NCBI RefSeq assembly: GCF_031200575.1
Contig: NZ_CP133597.1
Coordinates: forward strand, 1,178,001-1,242,000
DNA: 64,000 nt
Origin: Ferroplasma sp.
Lineage (GTDB): Archaea; Thermoplasmatota; Thermoplasmata; Thermoplasmatales; Thermoplasmataceae
Direction of reading: 5' to 3'
In this document: in pieces, positions 23,137 through 52,125 of the stretch
How positions within the stretch are numbered: position 1 is the stretch's first letter
How the letters are laid out: every line of letters starts with the position of its first letter
Made by a program: the position numbers and the translations under genes
Notes under the pieces: model-generated
Database searches by the model: none
What the model saw: the letters and a program-made list of their open reading frames with translations, nothing else
What the model was told of the DNA's origin: nothing

Positions 23137-23964
23137 GATCTGAAAATTGTCAAATTGGATATATAATATTTGTATATAAATATTTAATTAATAAAGTAAA
23201 ATAAGCATTGAGGATTTAATAGTACCATTATACTCCAGTGATCTATCAACAAGGAAGGTAACAGAAATATTAAGGGATATATTCAATAACCAATATCCAT
23301 AATCAAACAGTTTATACAATATTAAAAAACAATATAAGGTATATTAAAAAGGAAAAGGAAGAAACAATTAATCTCGATGAACTTCATTTCAAGAAATTAG
23401 AAGACTTATCAATGAAGAAAACAACCAATGTGAATAAACTTGCAGGCAATGTTAAAGCGCATTGTGATTCGTCAAATTTAATATTCCAGAGAGGCATAAA
23501 AGAATGTTAAGTACAGGTTTTTATAGGAGGAGAAATATACATTTAGCATCATTTTTTGTGCAACATCTGAAATTACTACAAAATTGCATGCTATTATATT
23601 CAACCTAACAGTATCATCACATAACCTGTTTCAGGCGTACTAGATGTTCTCAGCTTTTACTATTTTTCTGGTATGGAGAATGTCTAATCCATCTTCCTGT
23701 TCACGGAATAAAATTATTTATGTTCGTTCCTGCTTTACTGTTCATGTTCTACTTTATAATCAATTACACCGCTTTATTTATCGTTATAACATGAATATCA
23801 TCGAATACATAGCCTTAGATTATATAAGGGTCATAGTGAAAATTTACAAAAATTTAAGGTGATTTCTAACAGTATTAACAAGATTCTGTGATGCCCAAGA
23901 ATAATTAGAAAGACACCACAACTATAGTAAAATAATTTAAATAGGACTTTTATATCAATATTTA
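23137..23964. other. Decayed insertion-sequence debris, no intact gene
   Basis: Bases 23221-23310 read VPLYSSDLSTRKVTEILRDI in one frame, a short transposase-like N-terminal fragment of uncertain family. It is followed by an IS110 C-terminal relic (23311-23533). From 23534 to about 23930 nothing recognisable is seen. A T/A box aatttaaata at 23933-23942 is about 27 bases before the TTG start of the next gene. Confidence 0.45.
23311..23533 (+). mobile_element. IS110 right-end relic (copy H)
   Basis: Aligns by eye with the 3' ends of the other IS110 copies: ...LDELHFKKLEDLSMKK..., then SSNLIFQRGIKEC and a TAA. The right end is GGTTTTTATAGGA, against GGTTTTTCATAGGA elsewhere. The protein part is degenerate and the 5' three quarters are gone. 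The right flank contains AAATATAC (see findings). Confidence 0.65.
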
Positions 23965-36277: not shown

Positions 36278-36517
36278 GGTTTGCAATAAGCTTGAGTGCA
36301 TGGTGAGAGTAATTAGTTCTCATTGGGGCTTCTTATTCGTATATCATTATATGCTCGCCTATCATCTTTTGAAAGTGGCAGATGTCTCCTTTCATAATTA
36401 TTTTTTTAAGGTCAATTCCTCCCCTAAGGAATATCTGTATCTAATTATAGTAGATTACTAACATTATTATATTTATACCAGCTACATCTTTATGGTAAAA
36501 CAGAAATGCTTCACAAA

Positions 36518-37273
36518 TTACATGCACTGTTAACATCCTATGGAATAATAATAAAAGCTACAGACCCGTTCGGTAAGAAGGGATTAAGGGAGATAGAGGG
36601 TAATTACAGCAATCTCAGTTATTCCGATAAAATAGTGTTAAGATCACTGTTAAATGACATATCACTTATAAAAGAAAGGGAAAGGGAAATAGAAGCAGAG
36701 ATATCATCAAGAGCAGATAACAGCAATGACATAAAATTATTAATGACAATTCCCGGAATAAACTTCTACACAGCATCAGGAATATTATCGGAAATAGGAA
36801 CAATAAGCAGATTCGAGAACAAGCTCAAGTTTGCTTCCTATACAGGACCTATACTATCTGAGCATTCATCTGGTGAAAAAAAGGTAATGGGCGATATAAC
36901 AAAGCATGGACCACCATTATTAAGATTCTTTTTGGTTGAAACGGTGCATTCACTGATAAAGTTTACAAAGAAGTTCAGATCCAAGTATCTCAGCATAGTA
37001 AGAAGATTAGGGAAGAAGAGGTCAATAATAGCAAGGATACTGGCAGAAACAATTTATATAATGTTAAAAAACAATGTAAGATACAGTGAAAAGGAAAGAA
37101 GTGAAACAGCCAATCCTGATGAGTTATACTTTAAAAGGTTTGAAGAACTGTTAATGAAGAAGATAAACAACATGAGAAGAATCGCTAACAATGCCAATAC
37201 GCAGAGGGATTCAGCAAATTTAATATACCGGGGAAGCAAAAAAGATTGTTAAGTATAGGTTTTTCATAGGAGA
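36518..37273 (+). mobile_element. IS110 3' fragment (copy G)
   Basis: Homology to the other IS110 copies begins abruptly at about 36518 (HALLTSYGIIIKATDPFG) and runs to the right end GGTTTTTCATAGGA at 37273. The transposase C-domain is in one open frame to TAA 37252: TIPGINFYTASGILSEIG, ASYTGPILSEHSSGEKK with the candidate catalytic Ser, and KKRSIIARILAETIY. The RuvC-like N-terminal domain and the whole 5' non-coding region are missing, so it cannot make its own guide RNA. Bases 36302-36517 hold no gene. Confidence 0.8.
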
Positions 37274-37649: not shown

Positions 37650-38661
37650 CTATATTTTGGATAGATCAAGATGGTAAATATTATTGAAGTATCTTATAAA
37701 CCCATGCCTTATTCCCCTGATGATTTCAGGGAATGAAACCATAATTCCAATGGATTCCATTATCATGTTTACAATGATATATGCAATCATATAGGAGAAT
37801 ACCTGTATTATCATCCCATTCAATGATTTTGATAATAGGCGATCTATCTTTAACTGTGATTTCACTCTCTTGAATAATTCCTCTATGTTCCTTCTTAAAT
37901 TGTATGCATAGTAGATATATCTATCAGGTAAATTCATTATGTCTGTAATATACCTGTACTCAGAACCATCAACATTCACCCTTACAATCCTTAAATTCAA
38001 TTCATTACTCATTTCAATCATTTCATGGCCATTGACTCTCCCTGATTCAGTGTATACAGCATTTCTCCTTATCCTGGAAACAAATAATATAGTCCTATCA
38101 GCAAGCTCCCTGAACCTGTCTAAGTTATAGTAGCCCAAATCAAATACTAAAATGGATGAGTATAATATTTTACTATCCATGTCTTCTATAATATTATCAA
38201 ATAATGATGAATCATTTACATTTGCAGATGATATGTGTGCATTCAGTGGAACTGTAAATGGGAATACTACTGCAGGGACATGTATCTTCATTCCATCTGA
38301 TATTCCCTTATAGCTGCCTGAACCATTCATTAATGTTTTAATGAATGTTGAGTCTATAGCAAGAACACGCATGTATTTGCTGTATACCCTGTAGTCATGT
38401 GCCCTGATGTATGGATCTAATAATTTATAGAAAAGCTGGATAAATGGCATGTACGGTTTTATTTCTATTAAGCTTCGACAGCCATGACCTGCTTATTCCA
38501 TTGTCAATGGAAGTATCGGTTAAATCACAACCATGCAGTGCACTGTAAATTATGGCATATACATGGTCAATGAATTTAATCCTCTTTGAGTTTATATCAA
38601 GATTCATTGATTCTGATATTTCATTTGCTGGTTTATTCAGTATATCCTTCACTGTTTTCAT
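37650..38661 (-). pseudogene. IS4-family DDE transposase, frameshifted
   Basis: The N-terminal frame begins at 38661 (MKTVKDILNKPANEISESMN) and includes GCDLTDTSIDNGISRSWLSK. It leaves frame near 38440-38455, where the second frame starts MPFIQLFYKLLDPYIRAHDY. The core is then intact: VLAIDSTFIKTLMNG (first Asp), LVFDLGYYNLDRF (second Asp), and YNLRRNIEELFKRVKSQLKI, a Y-x2-R-x3-E-x6-K signature of IS4. A single base change in length would restore one ~330-residue protein. Confidence 0.82.
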
Positions 38662-38771
38662 AATAATTGAAAATTAAATTATCCTGTAAATATGACATGG
38701 TAGGATAAGGGTTAAGTATTGGAAACTGGTAAGAAACTTATTATTTTTCTTGTTTAAAATATATAAACATT

Positions 38772-39746
38772 CTAAAATCTATTAAATAAATCTATGTTAT
38801 CAAGATATCCAGACCACCATTCTCTGTTATTTTCATACCAATTAATTGTTTTTTTCAGTCCATTATCTATGTCTATTTTAGGCTTAAAACCCAATTTCAT
38901 TACTTTTGATGAATCCATTGAATATCTAAGGTCATTTCCTGGCCGATCATTTACATAATTTATCAGTGATTCTGGTTTATCCATAAATTTAAGGATTTTT
39001 CTAACAATGTCAATATTTGATAATTCTATTTCTGATCCGATATTATATATTTCCCCATTTTTTCCATGTATTAAAATATTTAATATTCCATTTACATTAT
39101 CTTCAACATATAACCAGTCTCTTGTATTTTCTCCATTTCCATATAATGGTATTTTCCTATTTAAAATCGAATATATTATTGTTTTTGGTATCAACTTCTC
39201 TGGATGCTGGTAAGGTCCGTAATTATTTGAGCTCCTTGTAATGCATACTGGTATTTTGTATGTTTTATAATATGACATTATTAAAAGGTCTGCAGAGGCC
39301 TTTGTTGCACTGTAAGGATTATTCGAATTAAGGCATGAATTCTCGCTGAAGGTTGTATTTATTGCATTACCGTAAACCTCATCTGTGGATATGTGAATAA
39401 ATTTTTCAATATTTTTATTTTCTTTAATATAATTTAAAATATTGTAGACACCATATATATTAGAATTCAAAAAATCATCTGCGTTTATAATTGAACGGTC
39501 AACATGGGATTCTGCTGCAAAATTTACAATATAGTCCATATTATTAATGGCACTTTTAACATCGTTTTTATTGTATAAATCGCCTTTTATAAATTTTATG
39601 TTTTCCTTTTCTAAATTCTTAATGTTGGATGCATATGTCAATTTATCAAAAACTGTAATATTATAATCACTGCTTTTTAATAGGTGTTTAACAAAGTTTG
39701 TGCCTATAAAACCATATCCTCCTGTTATCAAAATATTTTTAGACAT
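38772..39746 (-). CDS. rfbB: dTDP-glucose 4,6-dehydratase
   Basis: Extended SDR of 324 residues that converts dTDP-glucose to dTDP-4-keto-6-deoxyglucose. Seen: TGGYGFIGTNFV, VNFAAESHVDRSI, the catalytic STDEVYG and Y-x3-K in NPYSATKASADLL, SNNYGPYQHPEKLIP and LYGNGENTRDWLYVED, all hallmarks of RfbB. The start MSKNILITGG at 39746 is preferred over the longer frame (39767), since a minus-strand T/A box lies about 28 bases upstream. Divergent from rfbA; together they supply the FdtA/FdtB-like pathway at 45.5-47.0 kb. Confidence 0.92.
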   Translation of the reverse strand: MSKNILITGGYGFIGTNFVKHLLKSSDYNITVFDKLTYASNIKNLEKENIKFIKGDLYNKNDVKSAINNMDYIVNFAAESHVDRSIINADDFLNSNIYGVYNILNYIKENKNIEKFIHISTDEVYGNAINTTFSENSCLNSNNPYSATKASADLLIMSYYKTYKIPVCITRSSNNYGPYQHPEKLIPKTIIYSILNRKIPLYGNGENTRDWLYVEDNVNGILNILIHGKNGEIYNIGSEIELSNIDIVRKILKFMDKPESLINYVNDRPGNDLRYSMDSSKVMKLGFKPKIDIDNGLKKTINWYENNREWWSGYLDNIDLFNRF

Positions 39747-39784
39747 ATTCTTAAATATATATTTCATATAAAATGTTTAGCCAA

Positions 39785-39797
39785 AATTTAAATTATG
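39785..39797 (+). promoter_or_regulatory. TATA box deciding the rfbA start
   Basis: aaatttaaattat is centred about 26 bases before ATG 39816, favouring that start over ATG 39795. Confidence 0.6.
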
Positions 39798-39815
39798 AAT
39801 GCCAATTATGTCTAT

Positions 39816-40538
39816 ATGAAAGGTATAATACTTGCCGGTGGTACAGGTACAAGGTTGAAAGCTCTGACAAAGGTTACAAATAAGCATCTATTGCCTATAT
39901 ATGATAAACCTATGATATATTTTCCCATTAATACTTTAAAAAGTGCAGCTATTGATTCCATACTAGTAGTTACAGATAAAAGAAGGACAAGTGATTTTCT
40001 ATTGCTGCTTGGAAGTGGAAGTGATTTCGATGTAAGGTTTACATATGCCTTGCAAGAAAGTGCTAAAGGTATCGCCGATGCTTTGAGTAAAGCTAAGGAT
40101 TTTGTATATATCGATGATATGACTGTTGTACTTGGTGACAACATAATTTTTGGGAATGTAAAAGAATTAAGAGAACCATTGCGTAAAAGTTGTAGGATAT
40201 TTTTAAAAAAAGTGGAAGACCCAGAAAGATTTGGAATAGCGTATATTGAGAATGGAAGGATTACAAAGATCGTTGAAAAACCAAAAAAAATCACATCAAA
40301 TCTTGCCATCATAGGTTTGTATCAATATAAAAGTAATGTTTTTGATATAATTAACAAAGTACAACCGTCCAAAAGAGGCGAAATGGAAATCACAGATGTG
40401 AATAAGTACTTTCTGGACAATGATGATATTGAATATAGAATAATTGATAATGAGTGGATAGATGCTGGAACTATCGAATCATTATTCACAGCTAGCGAAA
40501 TGGAAAAAACTTTTGTAAGTAAAGTTAAATATTCATAA
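39816..40538 (+). CDS. rfbA: Glucose-1-phosphate thymidylyltransferase
   Basis: Nucleotidyltransferase of 240 residues that makes dTDP-glucose from dTTP and glucose-1-phosphate. Seen: MKGIILAGGTGTRLKALTKV, KHLLPIYDKPMIYFPI, metal-site VVLGDNIIFG, DPERFGIAYIENGRI, IVEKPKK and the GEMEITDVNKYFL acceptor segment, then WIDAGTIESLFTAS. All core motifs are present, and the enzyme is of the short type without a C-terminal extension. ATG 39816 is chosen from the TATA box and the conserved N-terminus. An IS110 element starts 22 bases after its stop. Confidence 0.9.
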   Translation: MKGIILAGGTGTRLKALTKVTNKHLLPIYDKPMIYFPINTLKSAAIDSILVVTDKRRTSDFLLLLGSGSDFDVRFTYALQESAKGIADALSKAKDFVYIDDMTVVLGDNIIFGNVKELREPLRKSCRIFLKKVEDPERFGIAYIENGRITKIVEKPKKITSNLAIIGLYQYKSNVFDIINKVQPSKRGEMEITDVNKYFLDNDDIEYRIIDNEWIDAGTIESLFTASEMEKTFVSKVKYS

Positions 40539-40580
40539 TATCATATAGATATTATTTAGAAATCATGAAAAACCTTATTT

Positions 40581-40752
40581 AGCCTCAGCTATATGACGAT
40601 ATAGCTGTGAGAATCGGAGGCGGTTGTTGGTATATTTGACCTTCGAGGCCGTTAATTAGAATACCCGCCCTTCGACTCGATTTCATACCTTATTAATATC
40701 TAATAAGGTGAATAGGAGTTTGTCGAGTCTACGATTCAGAATCTCACAGAAC
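40581..40752 (+). ncRNA. Candidate IS110 bridge (seek) RNA, copy F
   Basis: Three structural units as in the IS621 bridge RNA. (1) 5' hairpin CAGCTATAT-GACG-ATATAGCTG, 40586-40607. (2) Target-binding loop closed by GGCGG (40619-40623) and CCGCC (40665-40669). (3) Donor-binding loop closed by GACTCGA (40674-40680) and TCGAGTC (40723-40729), with inner hairpin ACCTTATTA/TAATAAGGT (40687-40709). TGAGA at 40608-40612 and TCTCA at 40742-40746 could close the whole. Guide TAATTAGA (40653-40660) matches the left insertion flank TATTTAGA (40553-40560) at 7 of 8. Donor guides TTTCAT and ATAGGA match the element's own ends. The RNA limits are estimates. Confidence 0.8.
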
Positions 40753-42219
40753 CACTAAGAGGTGATTAAATGGTAATTGGTTTGGATGTACATAAACGTT
40801 CCGTATATGCTACGGCTATGGAGGATAACGGTACTATTATTGTCCAGAGGAATATGGAGAATAATATGGAGACAGTGAATGGGTTTTTATCTGATTACAG
40901 GGATCATGATATTGTAATAGAATCATCTACATCAGGCAAGTATCTCTCTAAGGAATTATTAAAATTAAACTATAAGATACATTTGATAAATCCTGCAAAG
41001 GTTCCTGAAATAGCAAACAATTATAAGAAGACAGACAGGGAGGATTCATTCCAGCTTGCAGATGTATTCAGGAAGGGTGGAATGAAGGAGATATACATTA
41101 CATCAGGGGAAATAGAAAATACCAGGTCATTGGTTAGATACAGGCATTCCCTGGGGGAAGAGATAACCTTGAAGAAGAATAAGGTACATGCACTGTTAAC
41201 ATCCTATGGAATAATAATAAAAGCTACAGACCCGTTCGGTAAGAAGGGATTAAAAGAAATAGAGAATAATTATAATAATCTTAATTATTCTGATAAAATA
41301 GTACTGAGATCACTGTTAAATGACATATCATACATTAAGGATATGGAAAAGGAAATAGAAACAGAAATATTGATGTTGGATAGTGATTCTTAAACAAAAA
41401 TCTTTCCATTTCATGAGACATTTATTATCGACCTCTTATAATAATTAATCTTTCTTCTTCTGTAACTATCTTTCAAATTCTTTAAAAATCCTCTGTAATA
41501 TTCCCTGAAACTACTATCATTATTCCATTTACCTAAAAACTGCAAAGGTGAATAGTAATCAAGGGTAGAATGTGGCCTTATATTATTATAATCATAGAAT
41601 GCATTCTCTATCATTATTTTACCTTCATTATAATTATTGATTTCATTGATCCATATATAATCAGTTTTAATTGAATTATGGAAGCTTTCAATATCACCAT
41701 TTTCCTCTGGTGTTTCCCTTTCTATGTATTCATGGTTAATTCCCATTATTTTAAGATAATTATTGAACTCTTTAGATATGTACTGGGGACCATTATCTGT
41801 TCTTAATGTAATATTATCAGGTATTATACCATTGAATTTCCTTATAATAGCATCATCTATTGCATTTATTGCATCCTTAGCTGTGCATGATGTATTATAA
41901 TTATAGCCATACCATTCCTTGGAGAATACATCCTTAATACACATTAAATAGGTCATTCCATTGTTTGTTGGAATATAAGTAATATCTGTTTCAATCAGCA
42001 TTTCAGGCTTATCAGCTCTTAGTAGTTTCAGTTCCTTTCTGTTCTTATGATCGTGCACTGGAAGTGTCATATTATTATCCTTCATTATTTTATATACAGT
42101 TTTTCTGGCTATTCTTATGCCTGAATTCCTTAATAATGCCCAGATTGTAAACGCCGGTTGATTTTTGTGCATTTTCGCCGGAATAAAATTGACCCGTATC
42201 GCCAGTTTAATTTTGACCC

Positions 42220-43440
42220 ATGCGTTATACAAAACAGTGGTCAGAATTGTATGGTTTTGAGGTGTGGAGAATGATTCGCAATATGAAGAATGATGGAATG
42301 AGCATAAGATCAATAGCAAAGGAGATGGGAATATCCAGGAACAGTGTCAGGAAGTATCTCAAGGGTGAACCTGTGAAGAAAAATAAAAAGAAAAAAGCAT
42401 CTAAGCTTGATCCTAACAGGGATACAGTAAAGGAACTCATTGAAAGAGACAATCTTTCTGCTGTCAGGATACTGGAAGAGATAAGGAAGAAGGGATACAA
42501 TGGTGGCTACACAATACTGAAAGAATACTGCCACGATATCAGGAAGAATAGGCCAATACAGGCAGTGTACCGCTATGAAACTGGACCGGGAAATCAATCA
42601 CAGGTAGACTTTGGTGAATTTGGACATATAGAATATGATGGCAAATCAAGGAAATTATATGCATTCTCAATGATACTGGGATATTCAAGGATGAGGTATG
42701 CTGAATTCACCACTGACATATCCACAGAGAATACCATAAAAATGCATTTAAATGCATTTGAATACTTTGGCGGTTTCACAGACACAATATTATATGACAA
42801 TATGAAGCAGGTTGTACTTGAAAGAAAGGCCAATACACAAGAATCACATTTCAATGAGAAATTCATGGACTTTGCAGATTATTATGGGATAATAATGAGG
42901 CTATGCTATCCATACAGGCCGCAGACAAAGGGAAAGATTGAGAACACAATCAAATATCTTCGATACAACTTCTTCAATGGAAGAACATTCACAGATCTAA
43001 ATGACATAAACATCCAGTGCCATGAATGGCTGAAGAGAGTTAATTCACAGGTACATGGAACAACACATGAAATACCTGCAGAGAGGAAAAAGAGGGAAAA
43101 CCTCAATTCAATATCAGCTGTGCCAGGATACTTTACACATAAAAAGGAAACCAGAAAGGTATCGAGGGAATGCTATGTTTCCTATAAGGGAAACAGGTAT
43201 TCGGTGCCATGGAAATATGCAGGCAGGGAATGCGGTGTTATGGAGAATTCAGGGAAGATAATAATTGAAATTGATTCAGCAACAGTTGCAGAACATGGCA
43301 TACTCAATGGAACCGGCAGGATATCAAGAAAGAAGGAACATTTTGATGGATTGTTAAAAGCAATAAGGGATGAGAATAAGAATACATATTCCAGCATTGT
43401 TGAGAAACGTGACCTGAAAAGGTATGAGGATGTGATGTAA
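42220..43440 (+). CDS. istA: IS21 transposase IstA
   Basis: DDE transposase of 406 residues. Seen: N-terminal helix-turn-helix MSIRSIAKEMGISRNSVRKY, an rve core beginning SQVDFGEFGHIEYDGK (first Asp), DTILYDNMKQVV (second Asp), and PQTKGKIENTIKYLR (Glu), then a C-terminal beta domain (YVSYKGNRYSVPWKYAG). ATG 42220 starts 75 bases inside the left end. The stop TAA shares its last A with the istB ATG (TAATG), so the two are coupled. It cuts and joins the element ends with IstB. Confidence 0.92.
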   Translation: MRYTKQWSELYGFEVWRMIRNMKNDGMSIRSIAKEMGISRNSVRKYLKGEPVKKNKKKKASKLDPNRDTVKELIERDNLSAVRILEEIRKKGYNGGYTILKEYCHDIRKNRPIQAVYRYETGPGNQSQVDFGEFGHIEYDGKSRKLYAFSMILGYSRMRYAEFTTDISTENTIKMHLNAFEYFGGFTDTILYDNMKQVVLERKANTQESHFNEKFMDFADYYGIIMRLCYPYRPQTKGKIENTIKYLRYNFFNGRTFTDLNDINIQCHEWLKRVNSQVHGTTHEIPAERKKRENLNSISAVPGYFTHKKETRKVSRECYVSYKGNRYSVPWKYAGRECGVMENSGKIIIEIDSATVAEHGILNGTGRISRKKEHFDGLLKAIRDENKNTYSSIVEKRDLKRYEDVM

Positions 43441-44198
43441 TGGGTCCATATGAAAGGGTTCATGAATGCCTTTTAAAACTCGGTATGGCAACGATGGAAA
43501 GCACTATAGATTCATACCTTGAAGCATCAAAAAATAGGCCTGTAATGGAAATACTTGACCATTTATTATCGGAGGAGTTGAAGCACAAAACATCAAAGAA
43601 GACGGAGAACATGCTTAACTGGTCAGGTTTCCCATTCAGGAAAACAATAGATGATTTTGATTTCTCATTCCAGCCATCAATAGATCGAATGGTGATTGAT
43701 GAACTGATGACACTAAGGTTTATACACAATACAGAGAATGTTGTATTCTTAGGTCCACCCGGTGTAGGAAAGACACATCTATCCATTGCACTGGGAATGA
43801 GGTCAATCATGTCTGATATTCCTGCATATTACATATCTGCAGTGAAACTGGTGCAGACACTAAAGAAGGATTATGATTTGAAGCGCTTAGAATACAGGAT
43901 AAAGACATATTCACGCTTTAAATTAATGATAGTGGACGAGATAGGATATCTTCCATTGACAAGGGAAGAATCCAACCTGTTCTTCCAGTTTGTATCATCC
44001 AGGTATGAAAGAAAGTCAACAATCTACACATCCAACAAATCTTTCTCAGAGTGGGGGGAGGTTCTCGGGGATCAGGTCATGGCTGCAGCAGTGCTCGATA
44101 GAATACTGCACCACTGCACAGTTGTCAATATAAAAGGCGAATCCTACAGGATTAAGGACAGGAAGAGGAATTCTTTCCAAAAAGATAAAAGGGAGTGA
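43440..44198 (+). CDS. istB: IS21 helper ATPase IstB
   Basis: AAA+ ATPase of 252 residues, DnaC/DnaA-like, that loads target DNA for IstA. Seen: Walker A VVFLGPPGVGKTHLSIALG at about 100-118, Walker B LMIVDEIGYLPL, and sensor-like STIYTSNKSFSEW, then DRILHHCTVVNIKGESYR at the C-terminus. Full length for the family. Starts on the last base of the istA stop. Confidence 0.92.
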   Translation: MGPYERVHECLLKLGMATMESTIDSYLEASKNRPVMEILDHLLSEELKHKTSKKTENMLNWSGFPFRKTIDDFDFSFQPSIDRMVIDELMTLRFIHNTENVVFLGPPGVGKTHLSIALGMRSIMSDIPAYYISAVKLVQTLKKDYDLKRLEYRIKTYSRFKLMIVDEIGYLPLTREESNLFFQFVSSRYERKSTIYTSNKSFSEWGEVLGDQVMAAAVLDRILHHCTVVNIKGESYRIKDRKRNSFQKDKRE

Positions 44199-44494
44199 TA
44201 AAATGAGGAAAAGTATATATAAAGTGGGTCAATTCCAAACCGACGTTTTTGCACAGATCCTGACCGGCGTTTACACAGATCCTGTTATATCCATATGTTA
44301 CTCTTTCTCTGCATAGCTCTATTATTTTATTAATGGTACTGTTATCAATCCTTGCTGAAGATCTTCTATCCTCAATGTTTTCATGCTTCTTCCTGTAATA
44401 GTATGTTATTCTGTTGATTCCGGAATAATAGCATGCATTGCTTATTTTCATTCCATTATTATACATCTCATCCACTGAACTTACCTTTTCCTCC

Positions 44495-44761
44495 TCATAT
44501 AATTTTTTTTAAAATTTCATTTGCTATTGTCATTTCGCCTATTATTGCCTTCAGGCTTTCATTCTCTTTCATTAAAGACTTGTCAGGATCCTTTCCTTCT
44601 AAGCCCTTTCTCCCACCTTCCAGGAACTGCTCCTTCCATTTATAGAACATTGATACTGGTATTCCATGCTCCCTGCATATCTCTGCTATAGTTTCATTGC
44701 TGTTAAGCGACTCAATTATAATATTGAATTTTTCCTCGCCTGTATATAATCGTCCCGGCAT
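44495..44761 (-). CDS. IS3-family OrfA (copy C)
   Basis: HTH protein of 88 residues, YTGEEKFNIIIESLNSNETI then AEICREHGIPVSMFYKWKEQF, nearly identical to OrfA of copy D except for the first residues, where copy C has the copy-A end. It is intact, but its OrfB partner is interrupted by the IS21. Confidence 0.82.
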   Translation of the reverse strand: MPGRLYTGEEKFNIIIESLNSNETIAEICREHGIPVSMFYKWKEQFLEGGRKGLEGKDPDKSLMKENESLKAIIGEMTIANEILKKII

Positions 44762-45349
44762 TTACATTACCTCCCTTATATAATTATATAAATTATCCGT
44801 TATATATATCTCTTTAGCTTTGTATAAGTTTAAACTATCCATAACCAAGGAATATTATCAGAAATAGGAACAATAAATAGATTTTATAACAAGCTTAAGT
44901 TCGCCTCATACACTGGACTAATACCAGGTGAATACTCATCAGGTGAAAAAAAGGTAATGGGACATATAACAAAGCATGGTCCATCATTATTAAGATTCTT
45001 TTTAGTTGAAACAGCACATTCATTAATAAAGTATACAAAGAAGTTCAAATCTAAATATCTGAGCATAGTACGAAGATTAGGGAAGAAGAGGTCAATAATA
45101 GCAATAGCAAGGATACTAGCAGAAACAATCTATGCAATGTTAAAAAACAATGTAAGATACATTGAAAGGGAAAGAACTGAAACAGTCAATACTGATGAAT
45201 TATACTTTAAAAGGCTTGAAGAACTGTCATTAAAGAAAATAAACAACATGAGAAGAATTGCTAAAAATGGTAATGTGCATGACGATTCAGCAAATTTAAT
45301 ATATCATAGAGGCATAAAAGATTGTTAAGTATAGGTTTTTCATAGGAGG

Positions 45350-45545
45350 AGTTGCATACAACTGTATTGTAATGGCCAATAAAATAACTGGAATCTCAGG
45401 GAGGAAAATAATGTACATCGTGAGTTGACGTATGTTTGGACACCCTAAGATATTATTATTTGTTTTTATTTAATCAATGCAGTCCTTCCCTTTATCATCT
45501 ATTCCATAACTAAGTATTTATACTTATAGGCTATTGTGGAGTACC
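45350..45545. promoter_or_regulatory. Spacer with TATA box deciding the fdtA start
   Basis: Mostly featureless. tatttatactta at about 45515-45526 is centred about 26 bases before ATG 45546, favouring that start over the in-frame TTG at 45534. Confidence 0.55.
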
Positions 45546-45962
45546 ATGAGTCCTCATGAAAAGGTCATTAAATATTTTTCTGCACCTCATATAGATGAAA
45601 GGGGGATATTAACAGTTATTACGGATAATATTCCAATAGATAACTTTGAAATCAAGCGCGTATATTATGTAAAAACATCAAAAAAAAATGTTATCAGAGG
45701 TGGACATGCACATTATAGACAAACTCAGATTTTATTTAACATTTCGGGAAGATTAGAAATAGAACTTTATAATAGTATAGAGAACAAAAAATTATTATTA
45801 ACAGAATATGAGGGAATAATTATAAGTCCTTTAATATGGATTAATATCAGGAGTTTAACTAATAACTCTCTTTACATGGTCTTAGCAGATGGGGAGTATA
45901 ATGAGAATGAGTATATAAGAGATAAGGATAAATTTATGGAGCTGATTTCAAGTGATAATTAA
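45546..45962 (+). CDS. fdtA: dTDP-4-keto-6-deoxyhexose 3,4-ketoisomerase, FdtA/QdtA-like cupin
   Basis: Single-domain cupin of 138 residues. Seen: HIDERGILTVITDNIPIDNFEIKRVYYV, the catalytic-histidine segment VIRGGHAHYRQTQILF (the RGxHAH motif of FdtA/QdtA/WxcM), ELYNSIENKKLLL, and PLIWINIRSL. These enzymes move the keto group from C4 to C3 of dTDP-4-keto-6-deoxyglucose. It overlaps the following aminotransferase by 11 bases, as expected for the FdtA-FdtB pair. Whether the Fuc3N or Qui3N series is made cannot be read from the sequence. Confidence 0.85.
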   Translation: MSPHEKVIKYFSAPHIDERGILTVITDNIPIDNFEIKRVYYVKTSKKNVIRGGHAHYRQTQILFNISGRLEIELYNSIENKKLLLTEYEGIIISPLIWINIRSLTNNSLYMVLADGEYNENEYIRDKDKFMELISSDN

Positions 45963-47046
45963 GTTTCAAAATTTTAATAGGCTTTATAATGATTTAAAGC
46001 TTGAATTGGATACTAGTTATTTTGAAACAATGTCTTCGGGCTACTATATTCTTGGAAGTAAACTAAAAGAATTTGAGAATAATTTTTCTAAGTTTGTTGA
46101 ATCCAAATATTGCATTGGTGTGGCATCCGGTTTGGATGCTTTAACCATCGCCTTAAAATCGTTGAACTTAGAAAAAGGAAGTGAGGTTATAGTACCGGCA
46201 AATACATATATAGCTACGTTTATTGCCATTATCAGAGCTGGTTATGTTCCTATACCGGTAGATGCAGACATAAGGACACTACAGATAGATGCCAATTTGA
46301 TACCACATAAAATTACGGAGAAAACACGTGTAATCATGCCCGTGCATTTATATTACCAGACTCCAGATATGGATGTTATCAATGAAATCGCAAAAGAAAA
46401 TAATTTAAGGGTTATTACAGATGCAGCACAAGGCCACGGGGCAAAATATAAAGGTAAAGTTGTAGGCTCACTTGCAGAGGCTGAATGTTTTAGCTTTTAC
46501 CCAACAAAAAATTTGGGTGCTATTGGCGATGCTGGATGTATTGCTACAGATAATGATAATATTAATTATAATTCGAAATTGCTGAGGAACTATGGTGAGA
46601 AGGAGAATTATGTAAGCTATTTAATTGGTTATAATTCTAGGCTAGATGAAATTCAGGCAGGTTTCTTAAACGCAAAGCTAAAATATCTCAATAAATGGAA
46701 TGAAAGGCGTAGGTATATAGCTGATAGATATTTAAATGAAATACATAATAAAAGAATCGTTTTGCCAGAGATAGCAGATTATGCAACCCCAAACTGGTAT
46801 ATCTTCCCCATATTTTCTGAACAAAGGGAACGTATAAAATCGGAACTTCAAAAAAAAGGTATTATGTCCATAATACATTATCCTGTGCCACCTTACTTGC
46901 AACCTGCATTAAAATATTTGAAGTATGATATCAATTCCCTAGTAAACAGTTCTAAAATTGCAGACACAGAATTAAGTATTCCAATAGACCCGTATTTAAA
47001 TGAAGATGAGATTAGTTATGTTATTGATTCTATAAATAATATATAA
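45952..47046 (+). CDS. fdtB: dTDP-3-amino-3,6-dideoxyhexose transaminase, FdtB/QdtB-like
   Basis: DegT-family PLP enzyme of 364 residues. Seen: GVASGLDALTIALKSL, ANTYIATFIAIIRAG, PVHLYYQTPDM, PLP-binding D157 in ITDAAQGHGAKY, the Schiff-base K186 in SFYPTKNLGAIGDAG, and LRNYGEKENYVSYLIGYNSRLDE... for the substrate pocket. FYPTKNLGAxGDAG is the FdtB/QdtB/DesV signature, distinct from the per gene here. GTG start inside the fdtA coding end gives coupling. Product: dTDP-3-amino sugar. No N-acetyltransferase is visible next to it. Confidence 0.86.
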   Translation: MIIKFQNFNRLYNDLKLELDTSYFETMSSGYYILGSKLKEFENNFSKFVESKYCIGVASGLDALTIALKSLNLEKGSEVIVPANTYIATFIAIIRAGYVPIPVDADIRTLQIDANLIPHKITEKTRVIMPVHLYYQTPDMDVINEIAKENNLRVITDAAQGHGAKYKGKVVGSLAEAECFSFYPTKNLGAIGDAGCIATDNDNINYNSKLLRNYGEKENYVSYLIGYNSRLDEIQAGFLNAKLKYLNKWNERRRYIADRYLNEIHNKRIVLPEIADYATPNWYIFPIFSEQRERIKSELQKKGIMSIIHYPVPPYLQPALKYLKYDINSLVNSSKIADTELSIPIDPYLNEDEISYVIDSINNI

Positions 47047-47094
47047 TGAAGTATCATTATCCTATAAATAGAAAGAAGGGCTTGAAAAGAGAAG
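47046..47094 (+). other. Possible 5' stub of a gene cut by IS3 copy D
   Basis: The fdtB stop overlaps an ATG (TAATG) that opens MKYHYPINRKKGLKRE before the IS3 end at 47095. This could be the start of the gene whose body resumes at 49825, but the frames do not join without assuming a lost or duplicated base, so it is only a suggestion. Confidence 0.25.
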
Positions 47095-47673
47095 TGATCT
47101 GACCCATATTTTTTTGTACACTTTTTTATCCATTCTAAGAGACACTTGACATCACCTTCTTATTTTTTATATACCTGTTACGCTGGCTTTTCTTTAACTT
47201 TTCCAGATATAGTTTATACTCTTTTCTGAAATTCACATCATTTTTATATTTATTTTCAAATTCAGATGGGGAATAATAATCCAATGTGGAATGCGACCTT
47301 ATGTTGTTGTAATCATAGAATGCGTTCTCTATTATTATTTTGCCATCGCTGAAATTATTGATTTCATTGATCCATATGTAATCAGTCTTAATTTAATTAT
47401 GAAAACTTTCAATATCACCATTTTCTTCAGGTGTTTCCTTTTCTATGTATTCATGGTTAATTCCCATTATTTTAAGATAGTTATTGAACTTCTTAGAGAT
47501 ATACTGTGGACCGTTATCTGTCCTCAATGTAATATTATCAGGTACTATGCCATTGAGCTTCCTTATTATTGAATCACCCATTGCACTGATTGCATCCCTA
47601 GCAGTGCATGATATATTATAGTTATAGCCATACCATTCCTTAGAAAATACATCCTCCTATGAAAAACCTATAC

Positions 47674-48840
47674 CTAACAATCTTTTATGCCTCCATTGTA
47701 TTTTAAATTTGCTGAATCATCTACTGTATTGTTATTGTCTTTTAATGATGTATATTCCATAGTCCTTCTTTTCCTTATTGCAAGGCTTTCCAATCTATCA
47801 AAATAGGCATAATCAATATTTTTAGACCTGTTTTATCTCTCTCATAGTCAATGTAACCTGTTTTATTTTTAAGCATGGTAAATATTGTTTCTGCTAATAT
47901 TATTGCTATTATTGACCTCTTCTTTCCCAATCTTCTTACAATGCTGAGATACTTGGATCTGAACTTCTTTGTATATTTTATTACAATATGCGATATTTCT
48001 GTTAGGAAGAACCTCAATATTGACGGTGCGTGCTTTGTTATATGGCCTTTTACTACCCTCTCACCTGAAGAGTATTCCTTAGGTATTAAACCGGTATATG
48101 ATGCAAACTTCTCCCTGTTCTTAAATCTTGAGATATCCCCTATTTCAGAGTATATTCCACATGCAGAGTGATAATTGATTCCTGGAATTGTCATCAATAA
48201 TTTTATATTGCTATTGTTTACAGCTATCTTTGATAATTCTACTTCTATTTTCCTTTCCCTTATTTTTATAAATGATATATCATTTAATAATGATCTTAAA
48301 ACTATTCTATCAGAATAATTAAGATTGCTGTAATTATTCTCTATTTCCTTTAATCCCTTCTTACCGAACGGGTCTGTAGCTTTTATTATTACTCCGTATG
48401 ATGTTAACAATGCATGTATTTTATTCTTCTTTAAAGTTAACTCTTCTCCAAGTGAATGCCTGTATCTAACCAATGATCTGATATTCTCTGTTTCCCCTGA
48501 TGGAATGTATACCTCATAATGCATTCAATCTAAATAATTCTGCAAGTTCTAAGGAATCCTCCTTATCTGTTTTCTTGTAATTATTTGATATTTCAGGAAC
48601 CTTTGCAGGATTAATCAGATGTATCTTATAGTTTAGTTTTAATAATTCCTTACAAAGATATTTACCGGATGTTGATGATTCTATTACTATATCATGGTCC
48701 TTGTAAACTGATAAAAACCCATTGACTGTCTCCATATTATTTTCCATATTTCTCTGGGAAATAATATTACCATTATCCTCCATTACCGTAGCATATACGG
48801 AACGTTTATGCACATCCAAGCCTATTACCATATTAATCAC
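47674..48840 (-). pseudogene. IS110 transposase, copy E, two frameshifts
   Basis: Starts MINMVIGLDVHKRSVYATVM (in-frame ATG also three codons later), with ESSTSGKYL and KKTDKEDSLELAEL in the first frame. A frameshift near 48515-48525 moves to VYIPSGETENIRSLVRY. The C-domain is readable (TIPGINYHSACGIYSEIG, FASYTGLIPKEYSSGERVV, KKRSIIAIILAETIF). A second shift in an A-run near 47820 moves to DYAYFDRLESLAIRKRR and the natural end GGIKDC with TAG at 47674. Both lesions look recent because the rest is well preserved. Confidence 0.85.
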
Positions 48841-48849
48841 CTCTTAGTG

Positions 48850-49021
48850 GTTCTGTGAGATTCAGAATCGAAGACTCGACAAACTCCTATTCACCTTATT
48901 AAATAATAATAAGGTATTAAATCGAGTCAAAGGGCGGTTATCCTTTATGACGGCCTCGAATGCCAATGTATTCGAAAACCGCCTCAGATTCTCACAGCTA
49001 TATCGTCATATAGCTGAGGCT
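48850..49021 (-). ncRNA. Candidate IS110 bridge (seek) RNA, copy E
   Basis: Same architecture as the copy F RNA: 5' hairpin at 48995-49016, target loop closed by GGCGGTT/AACCGCC, donor loop with hairpin ACCTTATTA/TAATAAGGT. In element orientation the second target-loop strand CATAAAGG is identical to the left flank (plus-strand copies 48941-48949 and 49041-49049 share TCCTTTATG, 9 of 9). The first strand AATACAT (48966-48972 complement) is complementary to the right flank ATGTATT (47646-47652 complement), 7 of 7. Donor guide ATAGGA equals the right end; TTTAAT matches the left end at 5 of 6. Confidence 0.85.
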
Positions 49022-49469
49022 AAATAAGGTTTTTCATGATTCCTTTATGCACATTAAATAGGTCATTCCGTTATTAGTAGGTATATATGTTATATCTGTT
49101 TCAATCAGCATCTCTGGCCTGTCAGCCCTTAACAGTTTCAGTTCCTTTCTGTTCTTATGGCTATGCACTGGAAGTGTTAAATTGTTGTTCTTCATTATCT
49201 TGTATACTGTTTTCCTGGCTATTCTTATGCCTGAATTCCTTAATAATGCCCAGATCCTGTTATATCCATATGTTACTCTTTCTCTGCATAGCTCTATTAT
49301 TTTATTAATGGTACTGTTATCAATCCTTGCTGAAGATCTTCTATCCTCAATGTTTTCATGCTTCTTCCTGTAATAGTATGTTATTCTGTTGATTCCGGAA
49401 TAATAGCATGCATTGCTTATTTTCATTCCATTATTATACATCTCATCCACTGAACTTACCTTTTCCTCC

Positions 49470-49733
49470 TCATATAATTTTTTTTAAAATTTCATTTGCT
49501 ATTGTCATTTCGCCTATTATTGCCTTCAGGCTTTCATTCTCTTTCATTAAAGACTTGTCAGGATCCTTTCCTTCTAAGCCCTTTCTCCCACCTTCCAGGA
49601 ACTGCTCCTTCCATTTATAGAACATTGATACTGGTATTCCATGCTCCCTGCATATCTCTGCTATAGTTTCATTGCTGTTAAGCGACTCAATTATAATATT
49701 GAATTTTTCCTCACCTGTTCTTATATTCCTCAT
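49470..49733 (-). CDS. IS3-family OrfA (copy D)
   Basis: HTH protein of 87 residues beginning MRNIRTGEEKFNIIIESLNS, otherwise matching OrfA of copy C, ending ...MTIANEILKKII. The first codons belong to the type 2 end. Intact, but the partner OrfB is broken. Confidence 0.8.
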   Translation of the reverse strand: MRNIRTGEEKFNIIIESLNSNETIAEICREHGIPVSMFYKWKEQFLEGGRKGLEGKDPDKSLMKENESLKAIIGEMTIANEILKKII

Positions 49734-49824
49734 TATAACGCACCCCTGTTGATACTGTAATAATATTCTACAATATTTATATATTCCTTTTCATAACTGT
49801 CCAAATTATTAATGGGACATACCA

Positions 49825-50792
49825 AATCTATTAGTAGAGTCTCTTTATAAAATATTCGAAAATGACGATATCAGATCAGACAGATGTGAATCATTGATTA
49901 CATACAAAAATTATATATCTGGATTGGATGAACATACAGAAAATAGAATAAAATTCAATGTGGATGCCAAGTTGTTTTTTCAAATCTTGAGCCATTTATA
50001 AAGAAATTGAAACTCATAGAAAACGTCAATGCTATGGATGTTAAATTCAGAAGCAGGTCCGATGTATACAATTATATAGAGTCCATAAATAATAATGAAT
50101 TATACAATAACCTGGAATTGAAAAGTACGGTAAAGGCTTTGGCTGACCTAATATACATACTGGATAAGGCTGAACTTTTACAGGAATATGTGTTTGAAAA
50201 TAATATTAAAACTGTCTATATATTATTTGATAAAGACCATTACAATTCCATTGAAAAGCATTTAAAGGCGCATAATATAAAAATACAGGATGTCCTTGAA
50301 CTGTACAGGCAGGAGATAAAGCTGGTTAAAATCGCAACGGAACCCATTGATATGGACTCAGATGTACATTTTTTCATTAAAAATATCGTTCCCATAACCA
50401 TGTACGGTGATGAGAAACAGAATTTCCTGGCAAATCTTGAAAAGAGGCCAAATAAAGAAGAGAGTGGAGAATAGCTGGGTTTCCTCAAATTCAGCACAGG
50501 CCGTAAAAAATATTCACAGTACCTGGAATGGAAGGTCCCACGGTTCAGGTCTGTAATGGAAATGACCGTGCTTATTATATCATTATTCTCCATATCCTTT
50601 GATCTGGCGGCCAATCACGTTATAACCCCTATTACAGCCTTATCCTTATTCTTCGGCAGCATTATATTTATTGATGGTACCCCCGGCTTCATTGAGTACT
50701 ATTCAAGGAAGCAGATCAACACTTCACTTTACAATAAAATCATAGAATGGTATAATAAGATAAATTCTGAAAAAGATGGCAATAACCAGTAA
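49825..50792 (+). pseudogene. Unknown membrane-anchored protein gene, truncated, frameshifted and with a TAG
   Basis: The frame is open from the IS3 boundary (NLLVESLYKIFENDDIRSDR) and loses one T in the T6 run at 49975-49980. It resumes SNLEPFIKKLKLIENVNAMD to TAG 50472-50474, and continues in the same frame as LGFLKFSTGRKKYSQYLEWK to two hydrophobic segments (VLIISLFSISFDLAANHVI and ITALSLFFGSIIFIDG) and TAA 50792. So a soluble alpha-helical domain followed by a two-helix membrane hairpin was probably one protein. No family recognised. The start was removed by IS3 copy D. Confidence 0.55.
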
Positions 50793-50804
50793 AATTTTTA
50801 AATT
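50793..50804 (+). promoter_or_regulatory. TATA box of the IS256-disrupted GT2 gene
   Basis: atttttaaatta is centred about 24 bases before the GTG at 50822, the start of the GT2 gene that was later split. Confidence 0.5.
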
Positions 50805-50863
50805 ATTTGCAATATTACTCAGTGAAAATAACGGTCATAATTACAGCATATGACAGAAAAAAA

Positions 50864-52125
50864 GATAATGTAATACATTTACTGTAAATTCAAATGGCCC
50901 TTTACCATTATCCTTAATCAACCTCCATATTTATGTATTTCCTTAACAGCCATTCCTCATTGATGTCCATTGCTATTGAAACAACCAGCCTTAGCAGTGA
51001 ATCACTATCTGGAAATGCACCTATCTTTCTTGTCCTTCTCTTCAATTCCTTATTGAATCTCTCTGTTACATTGTTTGTATGCAGCTTTCTTTGATGAGAT
51101 TTAGGGAATGATGTGTATGAGTACAGTGGATCATACCATTTATAGAACATGTCAATGGACCTGTTTAGCTTCATCTTCTCCATTCTATCTATTGCTATCT
51201 TAAACAGTGATTCATCCATTAGGGCCTCCGACACTATTTTTGATATATCCTCCCACTGGTCCTTATTCATTGTCTTTTTTAAATTCTTCAGGAAATGGAA
51301 ATGGCAGTACTGCCACAGTGAACCGGGGAATGACTCTGTTACTGCCTTCCTTATTCCTGAATGGCCATCTGATATTACCAATTGAACTCCTGCCAATCCC
51401 CTTTCCTGTAACTTGAAGAAGAAGCTGCTCCAGTCCATCCCATCCTCGGAATTATATACATCCATTGACAGTATCTGCCTTACTCCCTTGCTGTTTACAC
51501 CTATTGATACGTATAATGCCATTGATTTGTATCTGCCATTTTTCCTGACCTTGAAGTATGCAGCATCTATGTACAGGTATTTTATCTGTTCTTCAATCCT
51601 TGTTTCCATGAATTCCTTAACCTTAGTATCAAGCTCCTTATTCAGTGATGATACGTACTCAGGTGATACATTTACACCTAAATTATTTATTATATTGTTA
51701 ACAGACCTGGTTGACACACCATTGATATATGATTCTGCTATTACAGAGTTCAAGGCCTTTTCCACAGTGGAGTACTTGTCAAATACAGTGGTTGTGAATG
51801 ATCCTGATCTTAGATCAGGCTTATCCAGTATTAGCTCACCATCCACAGTCTTTAATTTCCTCTTCTTGGTTCCATTCCTGAATCCTGTTCTTCCATCAGT
51901 TCTCTCATAGGATTCTGCATTCAGCTGCTCAATCAGCTCCTCATTCATTACGTCGTTTAAGAACCATGTAACGAACTTTTTCTTTCCCTCTGTTCTATCC
52001 TCTATGAAAACCTTTATTAGTTCTTCTTTACTTATTAATTGACTCTTTGTCTTTGTCATTTTGTTTACCTCATTATGATATTGCAAAGAGTCATTTTAAA
52101 TTTACAGCAAAAAAATTACATTATC
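50864..52125 (-). mobile_element. IS256-family element, intact, 8-bp target duplication
   Basis: Length 1262 bp with long imperfect inverted repeats, GATAATGTAAT followed a few bases on by CTGTAAATT at both ends. Target duplication GAAAAAAA (50856-50863 and 52126-52133). Carries one open transposase gene. Different from the IS256 relics at 21350 and 58189, whose ends are GTGTACCATATT. Confidence 0.9.
50914..52059 (-). CDS. IS256-family (Mutator-type) transposase
   Basis: Transposase of 381 residues from MTKTKSQLISKEELIK (the frame extends nine residues upstream). Seen: GRTGFRNGTKKRKLKTVDGE, KYLYIDAAYFKVRKNG (first Asp), VQLVISDGHSGIRKAV (second Asp), the W-x-C-x-F-H signature LWQYCHFHFLKNLKK, and the C-terminal Glu in NNVTERFNKELKRRTRKIGAFPD. 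All catalytic elements are intact, so the element may be active. Confidence 0.92.
   Translation of the reverse strand: MTKTKSQLISKEELIKVFIEDRTEGKKKFVTWFLNDVMNEELIEQLNAESYERTDGRTGFRNGTKKRKLKTVDGELILDKPDLRSGSFTTTVFDKYSTVEKALNSVIAESYINGVSTRSVNNIINNLGVNVSPEYVSSLNKELDTKVKEFMETRIEEQIKYLYIDAAYFKVRKNGRYKSMALYVSIGVNSKGVRQILSMDVYNSEDGMDWSSFFFKLQERGLAGVQLVISDGHSGIRKAVTESFPGSLWQYCHFHFLKNLKKTMNKDQWEDISKIVSEALMDESLFKIAIDRMEKMKLNRSIDMFYKWYDPLYSYTSFPKSHQRKLHTNNVTERFNKELKRRTRKIGAFPDSDSLLRLVVSIAMDINEEWLLRKYINMEVD

Follow-up and report, generated by a model that had tools for sequence, protein, structure and literature searches.

A predicted bridge-type RNA, in two guide orientations, of an archaeal IS110-family insertion sequence

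Can the place where an insertion sequence settled be read from its own non-coding DNA, and if so, in which order do its guides stand? The question is raised by a 64,000-nucleotide stretch of a Ferroplasma sp. genome (contig NZ_CP133597.1 of assembly GCF_031200575.1, positions 1,178,001 to 1,242,000; hereafter the window), in which two copies of an IS110-family element, here called F and E, carry a region of about 200 bases before their transposase gene. RNA guidance of IS110 and IS1111 elements is already published, together with exceptions in the position of the RNA (PMC11208160, PMC11208158, PMC11187229): the left guide comes first in IS621 (PMC11208158), and the right guide comes first in IS1111, reversed relative to IS110 (PMC11187229). 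The window elements very probably specified a predicted RNA of the bridge type, its target loop matching the insertion site and its donor loop the element ends, in a family where an interior inversion would account for two orientations.

The non-coding region and what its loops match

F and E are evidently decayed copies of one archaeal IS110-family insertion sequence. IS3- and IS21-family genes interrupt F and E carries a frameshift, so the window copies are fossils; the genome that holds them, a single contig of 1.86 Mb, yielded no intact transposase of their group. In every copy the RNA region is upstream of the gene, and the right non-coding end amounts to a few bases only. The first-pass annotation, made from the letters of the window, had noticed that the regions of the two copies align without gaps over 201 bases and that their differences concentrate in one loop. 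This is borne out: E's region of some 200 bases is 90% identical to F's, and the target loop (within F 40626-40664, which holds its two strands) accounts for 16 of the 23 differences, the other 7 lying elsewhere. The subterminal inverted repeats ATGAAAAACC and GGTTTTTCAT are perfect over 10 base pairs (bp), with the extensions AGAAATC (7 bp) on the left and AGG (3 bp) on the right. When E is compared with an intact IS3 homologue, AATACATCC.TTATGCACATT stands against AATACATCCTTAATACACATT, of equal length if the common CCT is counted once; in this one case the insertion appears precise, with only the short common core CCT/AGG.

Relatives are plentiful. The genome itself holds seven copies of the non-coding region and the genus more than 20 further ones, some with an intact transposase of 384 residues; sister species carry intact copies, and copies at 40-49% transposase identity are spread through the order. 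A covariance model, R1, built from 25 regions and searched in 117 genomes of the order, matched about 100 regions in 43 of them; the named relatives are metagenome assemblies labelled "Thermoplasmata archaeon". They are treated here as group A (the window copies and their close relatives), group B1, the sister clade B2, and class-level relatives that include G182, G228 and G308. In a number of assemblies (G070:C83, G073:C28, G019:C12, G030:C56, G067:C34, and C33 and C45 of G024) the contig stops just past the target loop, with model positions 5-89 covered, perhaps because an identical downstream part is repeated in copies with differing target loops.

The 25 regions point to a structured non-coding RNA. 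In their consensus a 5' hairpin is followed by a target loop and a donor loop, each enclosing an inner hairpin; base pairing holds in 91% of cells, and the conserved fold by which the annotation had proposed to check its claim appears in compensatory changes, 20 of the 29 pairs having changed on both sides. For covariation the consensus scores 0.49, where shuffled alignments give 0.20 and slid structures 0.07-0.12. The donor loop's outer stem shows too little variation, and too poor an alignment in B2, for a good test. An Rfam scan of window positions 38000-52000 returned no relevant family.

What, then, do the loops match? The second strand of the target loop had been said to equal the left flank, and it does: E's flank CATAAAGGA is identical to the guide (9/9), and F's flank TATTTAGAA agrees with the guide TAATTAGAA at 8/9. 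E's first strand AATACAT is, as also noticed at first, the reverse complement of the right flank ATGTATT (7/7), in a register three bases off that of most siblings. When further copies are collected, the loop strands prove linked to the flanks in permutation tests. In group A (n = 22) the second strand agrees with its own left flank at 70 of 132 positions, compared with 46.5 for permuted guides (p = 5e-5, z = 4.6-5.2), and shifting the register by 1-4 bases lowers the score to 39-46; for the first strand and the right flank p is 0.007-0.014, with only seven right ends. Both B1 guides reach z > 4.6 (n = 12), and 29 unique left flanks of that group give z = 4.7. In the main test the opposite strand assignment yields no signal for either A or B1 (z = -0.4 for the window group). 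Single cases include L119 (AGCCATCAT, 9/9), L237 (7/7 on both sides) and the class-level G228 copy, 7/7 at both target guides, the class-level relatives being G+C-rich. A repeat search around the class-level transposases G332 and G101 gave no clear result.

The donor loop, by the same reading, corresponds to the element's own ends. The annotation had matched TTTCAT and ATAGGA to the two ends. The second holds, ATAGGAG being identical to the right end (7/7); TTTCAT was misregistered and gives way to GATTT, the complement of the left end AAATC. The pairs AAATC/GATTT, ATGTC/GACAT and TGGAC/GTCCA covary among groups. Group A joins a GATTT/ATAGGAG loop to the ends AAATC and AGG-AG, B1 a GACAT/ATAGAAG loop to ATGTC and AGA-AG, and a change in the G228 donor loop (ACAGGAG vs ACGGGAG) tracks its right end.

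Might the region serve only the transposase mRNA, as a structured 5' leader or a regulatory element, and match its flanks by chance or through common low-complexity A+T? Its place directly upstream of the gene would suit such a leader, guides and flanks are A+T-rich, and the RNA is predicted from DNA alone. Yet own guides beat permuted guides in three groups, an advantage that is gone in slid registers and, in the main tests, in the wrong polarity; donor-loop changes follow the ends from group to group; and G+C-rich class-level relatives reach 7/7 on both sides. We regard a mere leader as highly improbable. The core claim of the first-pass annotation, an IS110-family RNA of the bridge type in a Thermoplasmatales-like archaeon, its loops fitting target and element ends, has survived all computational tests made, here as a fossil system.

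Table 1. Features of copies F and E (positions counted from the first letter of the window)
Feature	Position	Strand	Remark
F core dinucleotide AG, left junction	40558-40559	+	sequence; register set from relatives
F left target TTATTT	40552-40557	+	adjoins AG core
F left end, AAATC and subterminal inverted repeat ATGAAAAACC	40560-40574	+	counterpart is GGTTTTTCAT-AGG at right end
F non-coding region, predicted bridge RNA	40562-40769	+	conserved fold; model R1, E-value 7e-37
F 5' hairpin CAGCTATA-TGACGA-TATAGCTG	40586-40607	+	helix 1, double changes in 6/6 pairs
F target-binding loop	40619-40669	+	outer stem 40619-40627/40661-40669, inner hairpin 40637-40651; helices 2 and 3
F target guide 1 TGGTATATT	40628-40636	+	expected partner is right flank; own right flank mismatched
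F target guide 2 TTAATTAGAA	40652-40661	+	equals left flank TTATTTAGAA, 9/10
F donor-binding loop	40674-40729	+	stem GACTCGA 40674-40680/TCGAGTC 40723-40729; inner hairpin 40687-40709
F donor guide GATTT	40679-40683	+	complementary to AAATC at left end
F donor guide ATAGGAG	40712-40718	+	identical to right end
F transposase, 5' part	40770-41393	+	roughly residues 1-206, up to the inserted IS3- and IS21-family genes
F transposase, 3' part	44843-45322	+	
F right end: repeat GGTTTTTCAT, extension AGG, core AG	45334-45348	+	followed by right flank GAGTTGCATAC
E non-coding region, predicted bridge RNA	48833-49040	-	model R1, E-value 3e-33
E target guide 1 CGAATACAT	48966-48974	-	AATACAT complements right flank ATGTATT (47646-47652), 7/7
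E target guide 2 TCATAAAGGATA	48939-48950	-	CATAAAGGA equals left flank 49041-49049, 9/9
E donor loop	48884-48923	-	GATTT 48919-48923, ATAGGAG 48884-48890
E transposase, frameshifted	47775-48840	-	two frames, 48514-48840 and 47775-48524
E right end	47654-47668	-	GGTTTTTCAT 47659-47668, AGG 47656-47658, core AG 47654-47655

Elsewhere in the window, another partial transposase of the same group (36500-37246, + strand, residues 135-374) stands without its non-coding region, and a more decayed remnant lies in the vicinity of 23187-23429. At 41394-44475 and 47156-49733 IS3-family and IS110 copies have repeatedly disrupted one another, E itself sitting inside an IS3 copy; one and the same IS3 end (TTAAACAAAAATCTTTCC) interrupts F and two of its siblings, L013 and L110.

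Guide polarity and the mirrored sister clade

In groups A and B1 (and C) the first target-loop strand pairs with the top strand of the right flank and the second equals the left flank. The annotation had seen the order of IS621 in the whole RNA. The succession of 5' hairpin, target loop and donor loop stands; within both loops the strand order is reversed, as in IS1111, and the IS621 order, with the first strand as left guide, is rejected for A and B1 by the polarity test. Read by the same method, the IS621 locus itself gave back its published order.

B2 is different. Its six elements (L127-L129, L131, L132 and L134) share the upstream RNA and the repeats of the other groups, and their guides match in the IS621 order only (right flank p = 0.008, left flank p = 0.09, n = 6), with L134 (CCTTGTGTGCG) at 11/11. 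Their ends, CT-ACT-ATGAAAGAAG on the left and CTTCTTTCAT-GACAC-CT on the right, are the mirror image of those of B1, AG-ATGTC-ATGAAAAAAG and CTTTTTTCAT-AGA-AG. The B2 donor loop, GACAC/ATAGTAG, has strands homologous to those of B1 which pair with swapped ends, GACAC-CT on the right and CT-ACT on the left; the subterminal repeats measure 9-14 bp in the relatives. We infer a single event behind all three B2 peculiarities, in ends, donor loop and target loop: the interior was inverted between the subterminal repeats. The transposase tree places B2 as sister to A and B1 together, with the class-level copies G182, G228 and G308, of A/B1 polarity, outside; the direction of the polarity change is something that we infer as well.

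Could B2 instead have newly acquired ends, or have had its guides replaced one by one? Its left ends are variable (CT-ACT, ACTACT, CT-ACTATT) and the clade was sampled from one origin only, which leaves some room for such a history. Against it, the donor loop is homologous to that of B1 (GACAC/ATAGTAG vs GACAT/ATAGAAG) and pairs with the same two ends, now on opposite sides, and a single inversion explains the ends and both loops at once. We hold acquisition or stepwise replacement to be a possible but minor contender. Inversion is preferred here, and on balance we lean toward the more general statement that guide polarity and RNA position are independent, switchable characters, polarity being switched by inversion of the interior between subterminal inverted repeats while the RNA stays functional throughout.

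As a separate observation, B1 and B2 elements lie head to head with one common AG/CT core in two genomes (L116 1664-2035 / L118 1920-2291; G032:C58, G029:C3).

The transposase and its relation to known groups

The protein is that of an IS110-family transposase by several measures. It matches PF01548, the N-terminal DEDD RuvC-like domain (82 bits, cut-off 29), PF02371, the C-terminal Transposase_20 domain with its G--P----SG motif, here GLIPSEHSSG (79 bits, cut-off 21), and the NCBIfam entry "IS110 family RNA-guided transposase" (234 bits). Residues D6, E51, D89, D92 and S256-G257 are invariant in 16 relatives, the DEDD set and the catalytic serine being assigned by motif. An AlphaFold2 model (mean predicted local distance difference test score 80) matches the bridge-RNA complexes of IS621 and ISCro4 with E-values of about 2e-13 to 2.5e-12 and template modelling scores of 0.63-0.69 (target-normalised), far above box C/D Nop5 and TasH structures. 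The genome of the window has a second IS110 transposase group (G000:C1:1667033-1667485 and 1463177-1463630).

Which of the known systems do these elements resemble? With IS621 (PMC11208160, PMC11208158) they have in common the upstream non-coding region, the order of hairpin and loops, a core CT (AG on the other strand) within the guides, the DEDD RuvC-like and serine Tnp domains and the predicted fold. They differ in strand order within the loops (reversed in A, B1 and C, the same in B2), in subterminal repeats of 9-14 bp rather than 2-3 bp, and in a transposase of 376-390 rather than 326 residues, about 22% identical in structural alignment. ISEc21, of the IS110 group with an upstream seekRNA (PMC11187229), is alike in its upstream region, its transposase of intermediate length and its target within an IS3-family transposase gene, as for E (at a different site); its bottom-strand match comes first, however, and subterminal repeats are absent or short in its group. 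Of the IS110-group traits, the window group shows the upstream RNA, and neither the IS621 strand order nor absent or 2-3 bp subterminal repeats.

The IS1111 elements ISEc11, ISPa11 and ISKpn4, with their seekRNAs (PMC11187229), agree in that the top-strand complement precedes the bottom-strand complement, in having subterminal repeats (7-17 bp across that group) and in the 7-bp left and 3-bp right extensions. Their RNA region, by contrast, is downstream of the gene, and the archaeal transposase is longer than the 330-350 residues of IS1111 and appears to lie outside the IS4321/IS5075 branch. Are the archaeal elements then ordinary IS1111 members whose RNA has moved upstream, like the published exception ISMtsp17? 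The 9-14 bp repeats, the extensions and the guide order are all those of IS1111 (PMC11187229), but the transposases (376-390 residues) form a separate archaeal clade with the class-level copies, not with IS4321/IS5075, in a tree with few references, long deep branches and a weak root, and a sister clade has the opposite polarity. Ordinary IS1111 membership is to us an unlikely description. The IS110 and IS1111 references are on long branches, and the clade is therefore assigned to neither group; in their sequences the archaeal elements combine ends and a guide order like those of IS1111 with an RNA placed as in IS110. ISMtsp17, ISHvo10 and ISAcp5 show that mixtures of RNA position and repeats occur (PMC11187229); these exceptions are single cases, compared here by description and for position only, and in the part of the source available neither guide polarity nor an inverted sister clade is described for them.

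How would such an element work? Transcription of the DNA ahead of the transposase gene would yield an RNA made up of a 5' hairpin, a target loop and a donor loop, the last reading the joined element ends. By analogy with IS621, ISCro4, ISEc11 and ISEc21, the DEDD/Ser recombinase would bind this RNA and use it to bridge the target and a circular copy of the element, with strand exchange at the common AG core (CT on the other strand). Which guide strand comes first relative to the gene would be set only by the way the interior faces between its flanking subterminal inverted repeats. A, B1 and the class-level relatives have one orientation and B2 has the opposite one, for which an inversion of the interior would be the simplest cause; the RNA would afterwards still be matched to the ends and to new targets. 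An archaeal promoter at the joined ends, inspected by eye, was unconvincing and is not claimed.

Counterevidence and meaning

Several points weigh against this reading. Both window copies are dead pseudogenes, and RNA, protein and recombination are here predictions from sequence. The right-flank register shifts by 0-3 bases among copies, the common ancestry of the copies makes the permutation p-values inexact, the left-flank test of B2 is by itself not significant, and in an enlarged B1 set the wrong-polarity control is weakly positive (p = 0.02). Lastly, F's right flank (AGGAGTTGCATAC) agrees with its own guide at best at 3/9, and a match between them is rejected.

That flank has a history of its own. 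It fits the guide AGTTGCATAAC of five sibling copies at 9/11, and F was considered as a recombinant that took its right end from a copy with this guide. A local rearrangement is equally possible, because the intact copy L096 of a sister species, which has F's target guides, has about 97 bases of F's right flank (window 45347-45448) but not its left flank; the right flank common to both is matched by neither guide.

In the literature surveyed, with incomplete coverage and ISfinder excluded, only the 2024 papers cited here turned up on these subjects, and no bridge RNAs are described for this archaeal lineage, nor the combination of upstream RNA, long repeats and IS1111 order, nor close relatives of opposite polarity. 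The elements offer candidates for bridge-RNA recombinases of archaeal acidophiles, intact copies being present in sister species, and the natural variation among about 100 target loops is material from which guide rules may be learned.

For the family as a whole, Siddiquee et al. took the reversed guide order to mean that IS1111 and IS110 may select their targets by different mechanics (PMC11187229), and Durrant et al. suggested that the RNA has moved from one end to the other (PMC11208160). Since the archaeal elements mix the traits of both groups and a close sister clade with a homologous RNA has the opposite order, the idea that polarity is the orientation of a cassette can be tested directly. 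If it is true, the difference in guide order between IS110 and IS1111 would be an orientation isomer and not a separate mechanism.
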